A stretch of DNA of 34,705 bases, taken from assembly GCA_012517095.1 (NCBI GenBank), contig JAAYVQ010000270.1:1-34705 (forward strand). The letters run 5' to 3'. Source of the stretch: Phycisphaerae bacterium. GTDB lineage: Bacteria; Planctomycetota; Phycisphaerae; Sedimentisphaerales; Anaerohalosphaeraceae. The notes under the pieces are model-generated. The model was not told where the DNA came from and did no database searches. It saw only the letters and a program-made list of their open reading frames with translations. Shown piece by piece: positions 20,701-28,508 of this stretch. Positions within the stretch are counted from its first letter, which is position 1. Each line of letters begins with the position of its first letter. A program made the position numbers and the translations under genes.

Positions 20701-22248
20701 ATGCAAAGATGGTATCGTTGGAGCGGACTGGCCATCATCCTGGTCCTGGCGATCGCTCTGGAACTCTATGCTGAATCTCAGGTCGGCAGCGCGGAGATCG
20801 GCCGCGATACGATGAAGATGTATCGCCAGAAACAGACGGGGCAAACGGAACTCAAACCGCGACGAGTACAATCCTCCGCGGCACCGAAACGGATATTTCA
20901 GGAACAGCAAGCCATAGCCGAAGCGGCAGCCAAGCCCCCCCAGGATACGCAACCGGCACCCACTGCGGGCACGACAGAACAACCAATCCCGGCTGTTGCC
21001 GAACCCGCAATCACAGAGCCAATACCCGCCGAGACTTCCACGGTACCTCCTGCGACAACGGCGCAACCGAAACCAACCGCTGTCTCCGGGGATCAGACGA
21101 CCAAAGACGAATTACTCGCCCTGTTACCCGATTCGATGATCGCCTGTGTTCGGGTCAACAACCTGGATTATACACTGGCGCTGATTGATCAATACTTAAT
21201 GGGTCTGTCGCCCATTCCGATGGTTGCAACGATCGGTGTTCGGACAGGATTGGCCCAGGTTACGCAAGACCAGAACCTACAGGCCATCAACACCGGAGGA
21301 AACCTTGCCCTCGTCGTCCTTCCTCCTCCGACGGGACAGGGCGACCCGTTAGCGGGGCTTCTGTCGCCTTTCAAGGGCCCCGACTCCGCTGAGGCATTGA
21401 AAGCTGCCAATGTCGTGCCTTTATCAAATCCGGCTTTCGGATGGAAATCGTTATCTCCGGATCAACCGGCGCCTGACCTTTCCAAAAGTAAACCCCTTCA
21501 ACCGTCGTTGACGGCCAAGCAATTGGATGATACGGCGACCTCACCGATCTGGCTGTTCGTGAACCTGCCGAAAGCAGTGGAGTATGCAGCTCCGGTCGCA
21601 GAAGCCAAGCTGCAAGAACAAGCGGCGGCCAACCCTCAACTGAAGTCAGCTCTGGACCAAACCGAGCAGATCAAACAAATCGGTAAGGAAATTCAATGTC
21701 TCAGCGCCAGCGTCTATCCAAGTGGACCGATGTTGACCCTCGATATGGATCTGATCCCCGTACCCGGTTCCAAATTCGCATCCTCCCTGAACAAAGAGAT
21801 GTTCAAGCTCCAGCCGACGCCGGAAATGGATCCGGTCACCCGCGGAATGGTAACGATGATGCAAGCTTTGAAAGTTAAGGACACCTCGACGACCAAGGAT
21901 GAGGCCATCATCGGGATTCGGAATCCGGATAAGGCCGACTTTGTAGGGGTTTTCTCTATCCCGGAACTCATTGGAAACATGGTCCAGATCGCATCCCAGC
22001 TACCGGGCCAAGAACAATCGGCGATGCAATTGATGATGGTCGCGGAGATGGCACAACAGATCGGATCACAGGTTAAAAGCAAGATGGCCATGGCCTTTAC
22101 GGTCCAGGAAAAGGCCTTGAATATCCAGATCGCGATCCCGAAAAAGCATGTTGTCGAAATGGTTCAGGTAATCCAGACACTGCAACAATCCGGTATGACG
22201 CAACCGCAGACAATGCCGGCCCCCACTCAAACCGATGGATCGCAATGA
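20701..22248 (+). CDS. Exported protein with proline-rich linker, function unknown
   Basis: The ORF opens at 20641, but ATG 20701 has GGGAG upstream and starts a signal or anchor segment (WSGLAIILVLAIALELYA), giving 515 residues. Residues about 60-145 are a low-complexity Pro/Ala/Thr linker (TEPIPAETSTVPPATTAQPKP). The C-terminal region (about 150-490) begins ELLALLPDSMIACVRVNNLDYTLALID. This resembles the opening of DUF3352-type planctomycete proteins, where a similar strand-helix unit recurs; WLFVNLPKAVEYAAPV could be a second such unit. The tail is Pro/Thr/Gln-rich. No catalytic motif is seen. The linker suggests a domain held away from the membrane. A strong terminator follows. Confidence 0.75.
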   Translation: MQRWYRWSGLAIILVLAIALELYAESQVGSAEIGRDTMKMYRQKQTGQTELKPRRVQSSAAPKRIFQEQQAIAEAAAKPPQDTQPAPTAGTTEQPIPAVAEPAITEPIPAETSTVPPATTAQPKPTAVSGDQTTKDELLALLPDSMIACVRVNNLDYTLALIDQYLMGLSPIPMVATIGVRTGLAQVTQDQNLQAINTGGNLALVVLPPPTGQGDPLAGLLSPFKGPDSAEALKAANVVPLSNPAFGWKSLSPDQPAPDLSKSKPLQPSLTAKQLDDTATSPIWLFVNLPKAVEYAAPVAEAKLQEQAAANPQLKSALDQTEQIKQIGKEIQCLSASVYPSGPMLTLDMDLIPVPGSKFASSLNKEMFKLQPTPEMDPVTRGMVTMMQALKVKDTSTTKDEAIIGIRNPDKADFVGVFSIPELIGNMVQIASQLPGQEQSAMQLMMVAEMAQQIGSQVKSKMAMAFTVQEKALNIQIAIPKKHVVEMVQVIQTLQQSGMTQPQTMPAPTQTDGSQ

Positions 22249-22289
22249 GGGTCCCATAAGAATCCTCTTCTTCCCGATTTGATTCGCCT

Positions 22290-22325
22290 AAACCCCTTGC
22301 CGGACACCGGAAAGGGGTTTTCTTT
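22290..22325 (+). terminator. Intrinsic terminator after the exported-protein gene
   Basis: AACCCCTT (22291-22298) pairs with AAGGGGTT (22312-22319), with an inner CCGG/CCGG pairing in the loop and TTTTCTTTT following. It isolates the trp promoter from upstream transcription. Confidence 0.85.
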
Positions 22326-22362
22326 TGCGCTGTGCGGACCAAAAAATATTTTATTTTCCCCG

Positions 22363-22391
22363 TTGACATTGTCGCCGAGATATGGCATAAT
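22363..22391 (+). promoter_or_regulatory. trp operon promoter
   Basis: TTGACA (22363-22368, perfect) and CATAAT (22386-22391) are separated by 17 bp. The predicted start is 22397-22399, at or next to the ATG of the leader peptide (22399). No Trp-repressor-like operator is recognised by eye. Confidence 0.8.
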
Positions 22392-22398
22392 TGTTTCT

Positions 22399-22464
22399 AT
22401 GAAAAGAAACAACTCATCCAACTTGTTGTGGTGGTGGCGGCCTGTCGGATTCCTCGACAGGTAG
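22399..22464 (+). CDS. trpL: trp operon leader peptide with three tandem Trp codons
   Basis: A 21-residue ORF (MKRNNSSNLLWWWRPV...) with TGG TGG TGG at codons 11-13 (22429-22437) and stop TAG at 22462-22464. It sits directly between the trp promoter and the attenuator. No Shine-Dalgarno sequence precedes it, and the predicted transcript starts at or within two bases of the ATG, so translation would be leaderless or nearly so. The three Trp codons end 3 nt before the first pairing segment, and the stop codon touches the end of the second. This is the geometry needed for ribosome-stalling control: the peptide itself is presumably only a sensor of charged tRNA-Trp. Confidence 0.92.
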   Translation: MKRNNSSNLLWWWRPVGFLDR

Positions 22465-22531
22465 GGGATGGTTTCCGTTACCGGATGAGAAATCTTCCTG
22501 GGCCTGTCGTATAAAGCGACAGGCCTTTTTT
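22439..22531 (+). promoter_or_regulatory. Ribosome-mediated transcription attenuator of the trp operon
   Basis: Four segments built from the same sequence: 1, GGCCTGTCG (22439-22447); 2, CGACAGG (22455-22461); 3, GGCCTGTCG (22501-22509); 4, CGACAGGCC (22517-22525). 1:2 forms a 7-bp pause hairpin, 2:3 a 7-bp antiterminator and 3:4 a 9-bp terminator with six T. A ribosome stalled on the Trp codons covers segment 1, freeing 2 to pair with 3 (read-through). A ribosome reaching the stop codon covers segment 2, so 3:4 forms (termination). All pairings are perfect over the stated length. Confidence 0.92.
22501..22531 (+). terminator. Attenuator terminator hairpin (3:4)
   Basis: GGCCTGTCG-TATAAAG-CGACAGGCC followed by TTTTTT, located 32 nt before the trpE start codon. 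It is the terminator arm of the trp attenuator. Confidence 0.93.
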
Positions 22532-22563
22532 ATTTATATCAAGTAGAATGCAGGGAATAGAAC

Positions 22564-24189
22564 ATGAGCGTATCTGTGGATCACCCGATTGAACATGCGA
22601 TTCAACAGGCCGGGACCGGCGAGATTGTCCCGTTGGTTCGCGAAATTCCAATGACCTGTCCGGTGGACTTCTTCGCACGACTGAGCGACTATGGACGAAC
22701 CGTCCATAGTTGCCTGTTCGAATCCCGCGACCAGCGTGCCGACAGTGACGCCGGGGAACTGACCTTTGGAACCGCCCGACCCGCCCTCTATCTGACCGGC
22801 CGGGGCGCAGACTTTCGCATCGAGGCCCTTACCGAGACCGGATGTCGGATGATCCGCTTCCTGGCCGCCCGGTCCCAACGGTTTCCCCGATGCAGTCGGT
22901 TTCGCATTTCTGAAAATCGCATCGAAGGCGCCGTTGAAACCTCCTCCGGAATCCTGGATGAGCAGAGCCGCCTCAAACGCCCCGGACAAATGGACATCCT
23001 CCGGGCCGTCGCGTATGGCTTCCGAATGGCTCACTCCCCCTTTCGGGTCACCTGCGGTCTTCTCGGAGCCATCAGTTATGACTTTATCGATCAGTTCGAA
23101 CGACTGCCCGCCAGTCCCGCCGACCTGCTCCGAAATCCCGACTATGAATTATATTTCGCCGACAATATCTTCTTGATGGACCACAAGTCCGGCAAATCCT
23201 TCGTGATCGTCAACGCCATGATTACCGACGATGACCGCGATGAAATCGCCGGCCAGGTTCATGAATGTTTCCAGTCCTATTTTGACGCCTTGAAAATGCC
23301 GGCCCCAGCCGGCCGGAAGATTGCATCGCCTCTGAATGCGCCCACCACGGACACCTCCAAAGAACAATATATTCGGATGGTCGAAAAGGCCCAACAACAT
23401 ATTGTGGACGGGGATATCTTCCAGGTGGTCCTGAGTCGAACTCTGATGGAACCCTGTCCCGATGAACCGCTGGATGTCTATCGCCGTCTTCGCAAACTCA
23501 ATCCGTCCCCGTATATGTTCTTTCTGAACACCCCCGGGGCCGTTCTTACCGGGTCCAGCCCTGAATTGAATCTTCGGGTCACCGGCAACCAACAAAGGTC
23601 CATCGAGATCCGACCAATCGCAGGAACCAAACCCCGCGGCAAAGTGAAGGGCCGAATTGATCCCGATACGGATTTCCGGTACGAGGCCGAACTGAAACTG
23701 GATCTCAAGGAACTGGCCGAACACATGATGCTCGTGGACCTGGCACGGAATGATATCGCCCGGGTATCCCAGCCGGGATCACGGGTCGTCAGCGAAATGC
23801 TGGCGGTGGAAAAATACGAATCCGTCATGCATCTGGTCAGCAATGTCAAAGGGATTCTGCGGGATGATCTGGACGCTCTCAGCGCGTACCTCGCAACGAT
23901 GAATATGGGGACTCTCACTGGAGCTCCGAAGATTGAAGCCATGAAGATTATCCGCCAATTGGAGGCCAGTAAACGAGGATACTATGGCGGTGCGGTCCTG
24001 TACCTGACGGTTGACGGACAGTTCGACAGTTGTATCACGATCCGCAGTATTCAGATCCGCGACCGCGTGGCATATATCCGTGCCGGCGCCGGGATCGTCT
24101 ACGACAGCGTCCCGACAACGGAATTCGATGAAACCGAATTCAAAGCCCAGTCCTGTTTGCGGGCCATCCGAAACGGAGAAACCCAATGA
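22564..24189 (+). CDS. trpE: Anthranilate synthase component I
   Basis: TrpE converts chorismate, with ammonia from TrpG, to anthranilate: the committed step of tryptophan synthesis. It has 541 residues, normal length to slightly long. Chorismate-binding blocks are DIFQVVLSRT, SPYMFFLNTPGAVLTGSSPE, RPIAGTKPRGK, AEHMMLVDLARNDIARV, NMGTLTGAPKIEAMKII and IRAGAGIVYDSVP. Near the N-terminus CLFES (about 50-54) matches the LLES element whose Ser takes part in Trp feedback binding, so the enzyme is probably feedback-inhibited too. ATG 22564 follows AGGGA. It is the first structural gene after the attenuator and overlaps trpG by 4 bp (ATGA). Confidence 0.97.
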   Translation: MSVSVDHPIEHAIQQAGTGEIVPLVREIPMTCPVDFFARLSDYGRTVHSCLFESRDQRADSDAGELTFGTARPALYLTGRGADFRIEALTETGCRMIRFLAARSQRFPRCSRFRISENRIEGAVETSSGILDEQSRLKRPGQMDILRAVAYGFRMAHSPFRVTCGLLGAISYDFIDQFERLPASPADLLRNPDYELYFADNIFLMDHKSGKSFVIVNAMITDDDRDEIAGQVHECFQSYFDALKMPAPAGRKIASPLNAPTTDTSKEQYIRMVEKAQQHIVDGDIFQVVLSRTLMEPCPDEPLDVYRRLRKLNPSPYMFFLNTPGAVLTGSSPELNLRVTGNQQRSIEIRPIAGTKPRGKVKGRIDPDTDFRYEAELKLDLKELAEHMMLVDLARNDIARVSQPGSRVVSEMLAVEKYESVMHLVSNVKGILRDDLDALSAYLATMNMGTLTGAPKIEAMKIIRQLEASKRGYYGGAVLYLTVDGQFDSCITIRSIQIRDRVAYIRAGAGIVYDSVPTTEFDETEFKAQSCLRAIRNGETQ

Positions 24190-24806
24190 ATGATTCAGCA
24201 ATGAATGTCCTGTTTATCGACAATTTCGACTCGTTCACTTACAACCTCGTCGATGAATTTGAAAAGCGGGGATGCCGCGTGCTGGTCTATCGTGCCGATA
24301 CGATTTTGGATGACTTGATTGGAGCCGCAGACACATTCTCTCCGGATTTGATCGTTCTGTCGCCGGGACCGGGGAATCCCGATACGGCCGGAGTGACATT
24401 AGCGGCAATTGGTCATTATCACGACAAACTTCCGATCTTCGGCGTATGTCTTGGCCATCAGGCGATTGTGCAGTATTTCGGCGGAAAAATCATTCACGCC
24501 CCTCAGGCCATGCATGGCAAGGCCTCGCGGATTTCACATCATCAAAAGGGAATCTTTCGTGGGATAGAAAATCCCCTGCAGGCCGGACGGTATCACAGTT
24601 TGTGCGCAATGCAAGTGCCGGAGTGTCTGGAGACGGTGGCCGAATATGAATCGATCGTCATGGCCGTCCAGCACACGACGCTGCCGATTTATGGCGTTCA
24701 GTTTCATCCGGAAAGCATCTTGACCCCCACGGGTGGAAGATTAATCGAGAATCTAATCGAAACGGCTCGACAGACCCGATCTTCTCAAATTCCCCAAACG
24801 GCATAG
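24186..24806 (+). CDS. trpG: Anthranilate synthase component II (glutamine amidotransferase)
   Basis: A class I amidotransferase that supplies ammonia from glutamine to TrpE. The catalytic triad is visible as GVCLGHQ (Cys88) and QFHPES (His174, Glu176). IDNFDSFTYNL and LSPGPGNPD are typical of TrpG/PabA. At 206 residues it is a single domain, with no PRT fusion. The start overlaps the trpE stop (ATGA), with GGAG 8 nt upstream; ATG 24201 is a possible alternative. Because no pabA is visible here, it may also serve folate synthesis, as in Bacillus, which the sequence cannot decide. Confidence 0.96.
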   Translation: MNDSAMNVLFIDNFDSFTYNLVDEFEKRGCRVLVYRADTILDDLIGAADTFSPDLIVLSPGPGNPDTAGVTLAAIGHYHDKLPIFGVCLGHQAIVQYFGGKIIHAPQAMHGKASRISHHQKGIFRGIENPLQAGRYHSLCAMQVPECLETVAEYESIVMAVQHTTLPIYGVQFHPESILTPTGGRLIENLIETARQTRSSQIPQTA

Positions 24807-24815
24807 GAGATTACG

Positions 24816-25856
24816 ATGGCGAAGATTTCCCAGTATCTGGATATCATTCTGGAAGGCAAAGACCTGTCGTTCGATCAAGCCAAGGCCTTGCTCGATATCA
24901 TTTTCGAGGGCGGCGTTGCCGAGGTCCAGATTGCGGCATTTCTGGCAGCTATGCGGGTCAAAAAGGCCGCCGTTTCCGAGATGGCCGGATTGGCCGCTTC
25001 CCTCCGGGAACATGCCGTAAAGGTTGAAACGGGTCTCGATAATCTGGTCGATACCTGTGGAACGGGCGGGGCTTCCGTCAAGACCTTCAATATCTCGACG
25101 GCCTCGGCCCTCGTCGCCGCCGGCGCGGGGGTCTATGTGGCCAAACATGGAAATCGCGGAATCACCAGTCGGTGCGGTTCGGCGGATGTGCTGACGGAAC
25201 TGGGAGTCAATATCGCGCCGGGACCGGAGATTGTCGCTCAGTGTATTCGACAGGCCCGCATCGGTTTTATGTTTGCGCCGAAATTTCATCCGGCCATGAA
25301 ACATGTCCAGCCGATCCGTCAAAGTCTGGATTTCAGGACCGCTTTTAATATCCTAGGACCGCTGGCCAATCCGGCCGGTGCGGCCGCCCAGGTGATGGGT
25401 GTTCCCGAAGAAAGTCTGATGGGACGAATTGCCGAGACGCTGAAACGACTGGGAGTGCGGAGAGCTATGGTTGTTCATAGCAACGGCCTGGACGAGATCA
25501 GCACGATGGGTCCGAGTTTAATTATGGAATTACGCGATGGCTGGATTAAAAACAGGGAAATCTATCCGACCGATTACGGAATCGAGATTGCCGATTATGA
25601 ATCTCTCCGAGGCGACGATGCCGCAACGAATGCCGGGATCATTCGACAGATCCTGGCCGGAAGGGAAACGGGACCCAAAAAAGATATCGTAGTACTCAAC
25701 GCAGCCGCCGCTATAATAGTGGCCGGTTTGGCGGAGGATTTTCCCGACGCAGTCGAGAAAGCCGAGGAATCGATTCGTCTGGGCAAAGCCCAATGGTCGC
25801 TCGATCAGCTTGTCCGGATATCCAACAGCCAAACGGAGACGACAAAAACGGCATGA
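24816..25856 (+). CDS. trpD: Anthranilate phosphoribosyltransferase
   Basis: TrpD joins anthranilate and PRPP to N-phosphoribosyl-anthranilate. At 346 residues it has the normal length. The PRPP/anthranilate-binding elements are DTCGTGG, TFNISTASALVAAGAG, VAKHGNR and CGSADVLTELG, with FMFAPKFHPAMKHV following. The start is preceded by AGGAG. The gene is 9 bp after trpG and overlaps trpF by 4 bp. No trpC is fused to it or placed after it. Confidence 0.97.
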   Translation: MAKISQYLDIILEGKDLSFDQAKALLDIIFEGGVAEVQIAAFLAAMRVKKAAVSEMAGLAASLREHAVKVETGLDNLVDTCGTGGASVKTFNISTASALVAAGAGVYVAKHGNRGITSRCGSADVLTELGVNIAPGPEIVAQCIRQARIGFMFAPKFHPAMKHVQPIRQSLDFRTAFNILGPLANPAGAAAQVMGVPEESLMGRIAETLKRLGVRRAMVVHSNGLDEISTMGPSLIMELRDGWIKNREIYPTDYGIEIADYESLRGDDAATNAGIIRQILAGRETGPKKDIVVLNAAAAIIVAGLAEDFPDAVEKAEESIRLGKAQWSLDQLVRISNSQTETTKTA

Positions 25857-26476
25857 TGCGGGTTAAGGTCAAAATTTGCGGACTCACGAATCTCGAAGAC
25901 GCCCTGATGGCGGTCGATATGGGCGCGGATATGGTCGGATTTAATTTTTATCCCCGCAGTCAGCGCTATATCGGTATCGCCCAGGCCCTCGATATCATCA
26001 ATAAAATCCCGACCTTTGTGGACACCGTCGGCATTTTCGTTAATCCGACCATCGAGGATATCCGGGATGTGGCCGAACAGGGCTTCCTCAACTGGATTCA
26101 ACTGCATGGGGATGAGACGGTCGAGTTCTGCGACTCGCTTCGATGGATGACCACGCGAACGATTAAGGCGATCCGGGTGAAAGATCGCCGCGATATCGAA
26201 ACGGCGAAGGCCTATTTCACAGACGCGGTTTTGTTCGACACCTTTGTGGACGGGGCCTATGGCGGAACAGGACAACGGTTCGACTGGCGGCAGATCGATC
26301 CATCGTATCGGAGGGTGTTTCTGGCCGGGGGAATCACTCCGGAAAATGTCGCTCAGGCGGTCGAAATGGGTACCTACGCCATTGATGTCTGCAGCGGAAT
26401 CGAGTCCAAGCCCGGCAAAAAAGACTACCTGATGATGCGACAACTCTTCGAAAACATCCGGCATATTCGGGGGTGA
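25853..26476 (+). CDS. trpF: Phosphoribosylanthranilate isomerase
   Basis: TrpF carries out the Amadori rearrangement of phosphoribosylanthranilate to CdRP. The ORF track opens at 25793, inside trpD. The start used here is the ATG that overlaps the trpD stop (ATGA), giving 207 residues. The catalytic Cys lies in VKICGLT (Cys9) and the catalytic Asp in DTFVDGAYGGTG. GFNFYPRSQRYI and FLAGGITPENV, with the phosphate-binding IDVCSGIES, complete the (beta/alpha)8 signature. It is not fused to TrpC. It is followed by trpB after 56 bp. Confidence 0.96.
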   Translation: MMRVKVKICGLTNLEDALMAVDMGADMVGFNFYPRSQRYIGIAQALDIINKIPTFVDTVGIFVNPTIEDIRDVAEQGFLNWIQLHGDETVEFCDSLRWMTTRTIKAIRVKDRRDIETAKAYFTDAVLFDTFVDGAYGGTGQRFDWRQIDPSYRRVFLAGGITPENVAQAVEMGTYAIDVCSGIESKPGKKDYLMMRQLFENIRHIRG

Positions 26477-26532
26477 TTTCTGCCGAGGATGTGCCGACTG
26501 CGATTCAATCAACTGACCAACAGGAACCTGCC

Positions 26533-27720
26533 ATGAAACACAAAGGACGATTCGGAACCTTCGGGGGCTTTTATGTGCCGGAGGTCTTGATTCCGGCGCT
26601 GGAAGAGATCGAAGCCGCGTTTGACCGTTACTCGACCGATCCGCGGTTCATTTCGGAATTGGATGACCTCTATCGGAACTATGCCGGACGACCGACGCCT
26701 CTGTATCATGCGCGACGATTCAGCCAGCAGGTTGGCTTCCAAGTCTATATCAAGCGGGAGGATCTGTTGCATGGCGGGGCCCACAAAGTCAACAACACGC
26801 TGGGCCAGGGATTGCTGGCCCAATACATGGGCAAGACCAAACTGATCGCTGAAACCGGGGCCGGACAGCACGGCCTGGCGACTGCCATGATCGGGGCCTT
26901 GTTCGGTATGGAGACCAAGATCTTTATGGGCGTCACCGATGTCCGCCGCCAAAATGTGAATGTCCACAAGATGCGGCTGTGCGGTGCCGAAGTCGTCTCC
27001 GTGTCGGGCGGAACGGGAACTCTGAAAGACGCCATCAATGACGCGCTTCGATACTGGACGGCCCATGTACAGGATACTTTCTATCTATTCGGTACCGCCG
27101 GAGGACCGCATCCGTATCCGACCATTGTCAAACATTTCCAGAAACCCATCGGCGTTGAGGCCAGAGCCCAGTGTTTGAGTCAATTCGGTCGGCTTCCGGA
27201 TGTGGTAACCGCCTGTGTCGGCGGCGGTTCAAACGCCATCGGCATCTTCAGCGGATTCGTCAATGACCCTCAGGTTCGCATCGTCGGCGTCGAAGGCGGC
27301 GGCAAAGGACTGGCTACCGGCCAGCACTGTGCCACCCTGACCGTGGGGACAGTCGGCGTTCTGCATGGAGCGCAAACCTACATCCTCCAGGACGAAAACG
27401 GCCAGATCCACGAAACTGAGTGTATCAGCGCCGGTCTCGATTATCCCGGCGTCGGCCCCGAACACGCCTGGCTCAAAGACACCGGCCGCGTGGAATACCT
27501 GTGTGTGGAGGATGAGGCCGTTCTCGATGCCTTTGAATGGTTCACCCGTACTGAAGGTATCCTTCCGGCTCTTGAAAGTTCGCACGCTCTGGCCTGGGTC
27601 ATGCGGCAAAAAGGAAAACTTTCGCCGGACACGGTCGTCCTGGTCAATCTCTCCGGCCGGGGCGACAAGGATATCGGGATCGTCGAAGAACATCGACCCC
27701 TCAAGGAGATGCCAGCATGA
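26533..27720 (+). CDS. trpB: Tryptophan synthase beta subunit
   Basis: The PLP enzyme joins indole, channelled from TrpA, to serine. Two starts are possible. The GTG at 26473 overlaps the trpF stop but adds 20 residues that look unlike TrpB. ATG 26533 (MKHKGRFGTFGGFYVPE) follows AGGA and gives the family's usual 395 residues, so it is preferred. The PLP lysine is in HKVNNT (Lys85); GAGQHG, GTAGGPHPYP, the phosphate loop GGGSNAIG and ALESSHA are all present. This is the TrpB1 type that pairs with TrpA, which overlaps it by 4 bp. Confidence 0.97.
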   Translation: MKHKGRFGTFGGFYVPEVLIPALEEIEAAFDRYSTDPRFISELDDLYRNYAGRPTPLYHARRFSQQVGFQVYIKREDLLHGGAHKVNNTLGQGLLAQYMGKTKLIAETGAGQHGLATAMIGALFGMETKIFMGVTDVRRQNVNVHKMRLCGAEVVSVSGGTGTLKDAINDALRYWTAHVQDTFYLFGTAGGPHPYPTIVKHFQKPIGVEARAQCLSQFGRLPDVVTACVGGGSNAIGIFSGFVNDPQVRIVGVEGGGKGLATGQHCATLTVGTVGVLHGAQTYILQDENGQIHETECISAGLDYPGVGPEHAWLKDTGRVEYLCVEDEAVLDAFEWFTRTEGILPALESSHALAWVMRQKGKLSPDTVVLVNLSGRGDKDIGIVEEHRPLKEMPA

Positions 27721-28508
27721 CCGATTACCGACAAATCTTCGCTTCGCTGAAACGATCGGCCCTGATCCCCTTTTTCGTCCTCGGTGATCCGGATTCAGCG
27801 ACCAGTCTGGAACTGATCAAGACTGCCATCGACGCCGGAGCGGATATTCTGGAACTTGGAATCCCATTTTCGGACCCAATCGCGGACGGCCCAACCATCC
27901 AAAAGGCCGACCTACGGGCATTGGCCAAGAAGATTACGCCCGCACAGGCCCTCGACCTGATTGCCCAAGCCACTCGCTACAAACCGATCCCCGTGGGCCT
28001 GTTAGTCTATTACAACCTCGTCGTCCAATACGGCCGGGAGAAATTCTTCCGCGACTTCAAGTCCGCCGGCGGCTGCTCGGTCCTGGTCGCCGACCTGAGT
28101 ATCGATGACGCCGATGAGATCGCCCCGGCTGCAAAAGCCGCCGGATTGGACACCGTCTTCATGGCTACACCCAATACCTCCGATGATCGTCTTCAACGGA
28201 TCGCCGATATGACCACGGGTTTTCTCTATACGGTTTCGACCCTCGGAGTCACCGGAGCGCGGGACACGGTCTCCGATCTCATCGAGCCCCTCATCCGCCG
28301 GATCAAAGCTATCACGAAAGTGCCGGTCTGCGTGGGCTTCGGCATAAGTAACGCCCGACAAGCCCGCCAGGTCGCAGATGCCGGAGCCGATGGCGTGATC
28401 ATCGGTTCGGCTATTGTTAAAATCATCGAGCAGAACCTGGACAACCGGCCGAAAATGCGATCCGAGGTTCGGCAGTTCATTGCGGAGATTCGCAAGGCCC
28501 TCGAATAA
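27717..28508 (+). CDS. trpA: Tryptophan synthase alpha subunit
   Basis: TrpA cleaves indole-3-glycerol phosphate to indole and glyceraldehyde 3-phosphate. The 263-residue (beta/alpha)8 protein has ELGIPFSDP (catalytic Glu47), ADGPTIQ (catalytic Asp57), PVGLLVYYN, TVSTLGVTGAR and VCVGFGIS with ADGVIIGSAIV (phosphate site). Its ATG overlaps the trpB stop, so the two subunits are translationally coupled. It is the last gene of the trp operon; no terminator is obvious before the next promoter 10 bp downstream. Its substrate requires TrpC, whose gene is not in this operon. Confidence 0.97.
   Translation: MTDYRQIFASLKRSALIPFFVLGDPDSATSLELIKTAIDAGADILELGIPFSDPIADGPTIQKADLRALAKKITPAQALDLIAQATRYKPIPVGLLVYYNLVVQYGREKFFRDFKSAGGCSVLVADLSIDDADEIAPAAKAAGLDTVFMATPNTSDDRLQRIADMTTGFLYTVSTLGVTGARDTVSDLIEPLIRRIKAITKVPVCVGFGISNARQARQVADAGADGVIIGSAIVKIIEQNLDNRPKMRSEVRQFIAEIRKALE

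Follow-up and report, generated by a model that had tools for sequence, protein, structure and literature searches.

In the trp leader of E. coli, tandem Trp codons are combined with four alternately pairing segments and an intrinsic terminator. Whether a switch of this kind also controls tryptophan biosynthesis in the Planctomycetota is the question raised by a short region upstream of trpE in a Phycisphaerae bacterium (assembly GCA_012517095.1, contig JAAYVQ010000270.1, positions 1 to 34,705 of the forward strand; this whole stretch of 34,705 nucleotides is called the window). An original prediction, made from the letters alone, had proposed a complete leader-peptide attenuator at 22399-22531 in a likely planctomycete. 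The host is indeed a Phycisphaerae genome, and its closest TrpE, 88% identical, is that of 'Phycisphaerales bacterium fen_1350'. From the sequence comparisons given here, we consider it highly probable that the region controls the trp operon by classical, ribosome-mediated transcription attenuation, with a leader ORF that would be read from a leaderless transcript.

The leader region and the trp operon

The region and the genes behind it contain the following features.

22363..22391, + strand: sigma-70-type promoter, TTGACA-N17-CATAAT with extended -10 (TG), 11/12 consensus
22399..22464, + strand: trpL leader ORF, 21 codons plus TAG (ATG at 22399, TAG at 22462-22464), peptide MKRNNSSNLLWWWRPVGFLDR, probably leaderless
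22429..22437, + strand: three tandem Trp codons (TGG, codons 11-13), the control codons (window sequence)
22441..22447, + strand: segment 1, CCTGTCG, within the leader ORF (sequence; 1:2 helix covariation)
22455..22461, + strand: segment 2, CGACAGG, its end at the stop codon; pairing partner of either segment 1 or segment 3
22503..22509, + strand: segment 3, CCTGTCG; antiterminator with segment 2, terminator with segment 4
22500..22531, + strand: 3:4 intrinsic terminator hairpin and T-run (terminator search; 3:4 helix covariation)
22517-22523, + strand: segment 4, CGACAGG, 3' arm of the 3:4 terminator
22526-22531, + strand: T-run (window sequence)
22564..24189, + strand: trpE, anthranilate synthase component I, the first controlled gene (NCBIfam NF010079, 489 bits; cut-off 471)
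24186..28508, + strand: trpG, trpD, trpF, trpB and trpA (TIGR00566, TIGR01245, NF002298, TIGR00263 and TIGR00262, over cut-off)

Coordinates and bases of the 21-codon ORF, the three Trp codons, the four CCTGTCG/CGACAGG copies and the T-run are exactly as predicted from the window sequence. The fourfold use of one 7-mer, which had been singled out as a notable compact design, is present, but it is a consequence of the pairing scheme, because one stretch must pair 1:2, 2:3 and 3:4. The leader region has a folding energy of -53.8 kcal/mol, compared with -37.9 +/- 3.8 kcal/mol for dinucleotide shuffles (z -4.2), and an equally low energy was reached in 0/200 of these shuffles. Between 22200 and 22620, there is no terminator-like site apart from the 3:4 hairpin, and leader and terminator lie directly 5' of trpEGDFBA, where the genes from trpG to trpA overlap or sit a few bases apart.

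The trpC gene is located outside the operon (G000 contig 351), and a Trp-rich leader was not seen in its upstream sequence that was inspected. A simple scan of the upstream regions of hisG and leuA found no comparable leader-peptide attenuators.

Conservation upstream of trpE

Relatives were gathered by TrpE similarity alone, not by the leader, and comprised 59 genomes with 80 named loci. Their labels are nearly all those of Planctomycetota or Phycisphaerae MAGs, several of them Sedimentisphaerales or Anaerohalosphaeraceae. Among 81 loci, two stop at contig edges and one is N-masked beside a visible WWWPAG, leaving 78 readable. We found a Trp-rich leader ORF in all 78, with at least two Trp codons in 77, and in the related loci the leader ATG lies 165-454 nt from the start of the TrpE match. 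The best matches of a covariance model comprise one strong match per genome in most relatives, located at trpE, while the others are weak. Thus, the search of related Phycisphaerae that had been proposed as a check revealed that an ORF with a TGG run and the alternating pairings are conserved upstream of trpE across the order.

An objection would be that a terminator and a chance ORF coincide, given that WW occurs in about 2% of nearby random 22-codon windows. We give the result of a strict scan, defined as an ATG ORF with WW or WxW, a good terminator after it and a promoter directly before it: it was passed by 69 of the 78 real loci, compared with 0/78 reverse complements and 0/390 mononucleotide shuffles. 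A coincidence is refuted by this conservation and by the helix covariation described below, and we assign it practically no chance.

The N-terminal part of the leader peptide is not conserved order-wide. The closest congener has two Trp codons only and a shorter 1:2 helix, and a single codon of the Trp run is left in clade g2 (L162, YWRRPQA). The loci L162, L101 and L106, which belong to one clade, have Trp runs down to one or two codons by changes of TGG to CGG or CGA with the RNA switch kept, and represent a natural series of weakening control codons.

Behind segment 2, part of the order has a conserved stretch, AGCGGTnnTTTGCT (alignment A1, columns 43-58, e.g. L063, L077 and L089). It is coding sequence in only some of the relatives, and it is absent from the window.

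Covariation of the three helices

The alignment contained 61 non-redundant, diverged sequences, with 4 of the 78 core loci excluded in which no good terminator was recognised. It was not fitted to a structure, and the helices were placed on it by eye. For the 1:2 helix, 81% of the cells are paired vs at most 42% when the helix is slid, and seven pairs have changed on both sides; the corresponding values are 91%, at most 47% and six pairs for 2:3, and 94%, at most 52% and eight pairs for 3:4. A shuffle control gave a clear result for the 1:2 and 3:4 helices and a weaker one for 2:3, the columns of which are constrained from both sides. Moreover, RNAalifold recovers 1:2 and 3:4 unaided. The four segments were expected to pair 1:2, 2:3 or 3:4, and both pairing and compensatory changes are seen for all three combinations. 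The alignment supports the view that mutually exclusive 1:2, 2:3 and 3:4 helices have been kept by compensatory change.

These pairings also bear on the possibility that the leader is a by-product, with trp control exerted mainly by a TrpR-type repressor and a constitutive terminator. The genome does possess a second trpB-like gene, next to which a TrpR-related protein is encoded (PF01371, 63.9 bits). However, a constitutive terminator would not preserve the 2:3 pairing or the Trp codons, and a PF01371 protein is present in only 25 of the 59 relatives, whereas the attenuator is found in nearly all. Control of this type is very unlikely to be the main one.

The TrpR-related protein is encoded directly 5' of the second trpB-like gene (L209, 1480-3154 of G000 contig 102). 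It is nearer to the TIGR01321 TrpR model than to YerC, under both cut-offs, and the gene order is reminiscent of chlamydial trpRBA.

Translation of the leader ORF and its probably leaderless transcript

For a synonymous test, we used single-base codon differences outside the Trp run between close leader pairs, with transitions and transversions treated separately. In 23 disjoint pairs, 34 synonymous changes were counted in the leader frame vs 21 expected. Over all pairs the numbers are 411 vs 265 expected, but all-pair counts are not independent and the disjoint set is the fair one. The two other frames had no synonymous excess, being at or below expectation. The in-frame excess indicates that the leader ORF is translated. 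Codon-position divergence across the whole order was uninformative.

The promoter at 22363-22391 is the best one in 22200-22620 and the sole good forward one, and it lies 7 nt 5' of the leader ATG. The promoters of the relatives match it in position and strength, mostly with 11/12, while random 60-mers mostly reach 5-8. Exceptions in the promoter table are mostly TTGACA-N17-TCTAAT, a form outside the criteria of the scan script. A trpE transcript start 3' of 22531 had been named as an observation that would speak against the prediction, and the promoter scan found no promoter-like site between the terminator and trpE in the window.

A start 6-8 nt past the -10 hexamer would fall at or beside the A of the leader ATG, so that there would be no room for a Shine-Dalgarno site. 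In nearly all related loci, too, 6-10 nt separate the end of the -10 hexamer from the ATG. The trpL mRNA is therefore probably leaderless, like that of Sinorhizobium meliloti, with its 5' end deduced here from the promoter. The leader-peptide attenuator layout of the original prediction was borne out, but the leaderless character that the promoter position suggests had been overlooked.

In S. meliloti, the 5' end of the leader RNA rnTrpL is the ATG, and the RNA combines a Trp run with attenuation of trpE(G) (PMC7298713). By analogy with rnTrpL/peTrpL, the short RNA described here, its leader peptide or both might also act in trans, besides the cis role. The RNA is probably leaderless, like rnTrpL (PMC7298713), the synonymous excess among close relatives concerns leader residues outside the Trp codons, and AGCGGTnnTTTGCT after segment 2 is conserved in part of the order and not coding in all. 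On the other hand, the N-terminal peptide is unconserved across the whole order, and the window is devoid of the AGCGG...TTTGCT stretch. We regard it as unlikely that the peptide or the terminated RNA of a leaderless trp leader mRNA also acts in trans and that selection outside the Trp codons maintains this additional function. If true, rnTrpL/peTrpL would have an independent counterpart in a different phylum.

Proposed mechanism and ribosome geometry

For the classical attenuator, we infer the start site, the stalling and the response to tryptophan from the DNA. RNA polymerase would start at the leader ATG or no more than about 3 nt from it, as the promoter suggests, and a ribosome would load on the 5'-terminal AUG and read MKRNNSSNLLWWW. 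When charged tRNA-Trp is scarce, the ribosome would stall on the Trp codons and mask segment 1, and the emerging segment 2 could pair with segment 3. Held by 2:3, segment 3 would be unavailable to segment 4, no terminator would form and trpEGDFBA would be transcribed. With plentiful Trp, a ribosome at the stop codon would mask segment 2, the 3:4 terminator would form and transcription would end near 22531.

We assumed a ribosome footprint of -12 to +16 from the P-site. With this footprint, a stall at the best-placed Trp codon masks all of segment 1 in 59 of the 61 sequences and leaves segment 2 unmasked in 61/61. A ribosome at the stop masks segment 2 in 59/61, in agreement with what had been claimed for the TAG, and segment 3 in 0/61; in two relatives the stop is too far 3' of segment 2 for masking. 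The claim that a stall at codons 11-13 covers segment 1 holds for codons 13 and 12 in the A site, which mask all or most of it, but at codon 11 only the first bases are masked (P-site +16).

The most frequent end of the Trp run in the relatives is W-W-W-P, which might indicate nascent-peptide arrest of the TnaC type in response to free tryptophan, the conserved Pro behind the Trp run contributing to the arrest signal. However, the Pro stems from the CC of segment 1, and shifts in register or base give Arg or Leu (WWRP, WWRL, WWWL) with the pairing kept. Moreover, measured from the start of segment 2, the position of the stop varies between 8 nt before and 25 nt after, and masking is nonetheless kept. 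An arrest of this type is thus highly improbable.

Folding agrees with attenuation by a translating ribosome. When RNA that ends shortly after segment 3 was folded under constraint, the 2:3 helix exceeded 0.5 in 58 of the 61 sequences in the stalled state and in 0/61 at the stop. The fold with masked segments, suggested earlier as a check, would thus switch 2:3 as classical attenuation requires, in nascent RNA ending past segment 3. With segment 4 included, an equilibrium calculation without kinetics favours 3:4 in most of the sequences whatever the state, stalled included. As 3:4 wins once all four segments are present, antitermination would rest on 2:3 forming first, and the outcome depends on the order in which the segments are made. 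Within the window, 22455-22511 folds as 2:3 (-27.2 kcal/mol) and 22450-22525 folds as 3:4; for the window RNA in its nascent state and without translation, 1:2 is weak (0.07).

Range across the order, the class and the phylum

The attenuator is found before the trp genes in nearly all sequenced members of the order. Members of the order whose trpE belongs to another lineage (families f4 and f5) have Trp-rich leaders too, some with a longer 5' region. In other orders of the class, the strict scan was passed by 0/24 genomes, two of them with little or no upstream sequence, and in other classes of the phylum by 1/50 (L195). A covariance-model search of 392 phylum genomes, with strong filters that lose weak matches, gave matches in the order only, plus L117. 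The attenuator is typical of one order of the Phycisphaerae, which is probably Sedimentisphaerales.

The exception in another class (L195, G113 contig 3) has a separate trp leader, MNINSSRFNGFTRLNHWWWYYINGRGG, with WWW and a TTGACA promoter near the ATG. Its terminator arms recur upstream, giving a terminator and antiterminator set GGTCGGGGTGGG/CCCATCCCGACC. This is probably an independent or a transferred attenuator.

Several other candidates were rejected. The match at L117 is a plain terminator on reading, loose WW-scan matches outside the order (L130, L133, L174 and others) are chance ORFs with neither promoter nor terminator, and L171, read by hand, has no terminator.

Two further loci depart from this pattern. 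In L192 (G068 contig 109), a Trp-rich, TTG-started ORF ending in SWGWWWRHSVIW is followed by a terminator 5' of trpE, and the 5' arm of this terminator is able to base-pair with the actual Trp codons. L149 comes from a complete order genome in which trpE is of another lineage (G037); the 780 nt upstream contain strong hairpins and no Trp leader, and its trp regulation probably differs.

Comparison with known systems

The Rfam model Trp_leader (RF00513) gave no match at the gathering score in the window, and at a lax threshold no trp leader was found up to E 5 in seven loci, namely the own trp leader and six related ones. The Rfam T-box model had no match in the window, where two tRNAs are the only Rfam matches.

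Naville and Gautheret reported in 2010 that leader-peptide systems were unknown beyond Proteobacteria and Actinobacteria, added histidine leaders in Firmicutes and made no mention of Planctomycetes (PMC2965389). A survey of leader-gene distances covers Planctomycetes and, in part of its text at least, describes no trp attenuator there (PMC4833913). The original prediction knew of no case described in this phylum, and our full-text literature searches found no leader-peptide attenuation in Planctomycetota either; a prediction may be contained in Vitreschak 2004, Merino 2008 or Lopatovskaya 2010. The system is a well-supported case of a classical mechanism, for which the phylum and the order-wide conservation are new as far as these searches reach.

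A compartmentalised cell organisation has been discussed for Planctomycetota. An order-wide, covarying trp attenuator implies that regulation in this phylum makes use of the coupling between translation and transcription. Moreover, the probably leaderless short ORF provides a test of leaderless initiation in Planctomycetota, and about 60 diverged attenuators form a data set for how such switches evolve.

In Corynebacterium and Streptomyces, leaders with double or triple UGG and terminators are located 5' of trp operons (PMC1262725). Terminator and antiterminator share the triple gGCC-rGCy-GGCC there, whereas the core is CCTG/CAGG here. With S. meliloti trpL-trpE(G), the system shares the Trp run, the proposed attenuation of trpE and probably the leaderless leader, the start site being deduced from the promoter here. 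Phylum and peptide differ, and here separate trpE and trpG genes belong to one trpEGDFBA operon. E. coli trpL (RF00513) is alike in its short tandem-Trp ORF, its 1:2/2:3/3:4 segments and its intrinsic terminator directly 5' of trpE. Unlike in E. coli, one core motif serves all segments here, the Trp codons stand just before segment 1, and there would be no room for a Shine-Dalgarno site.
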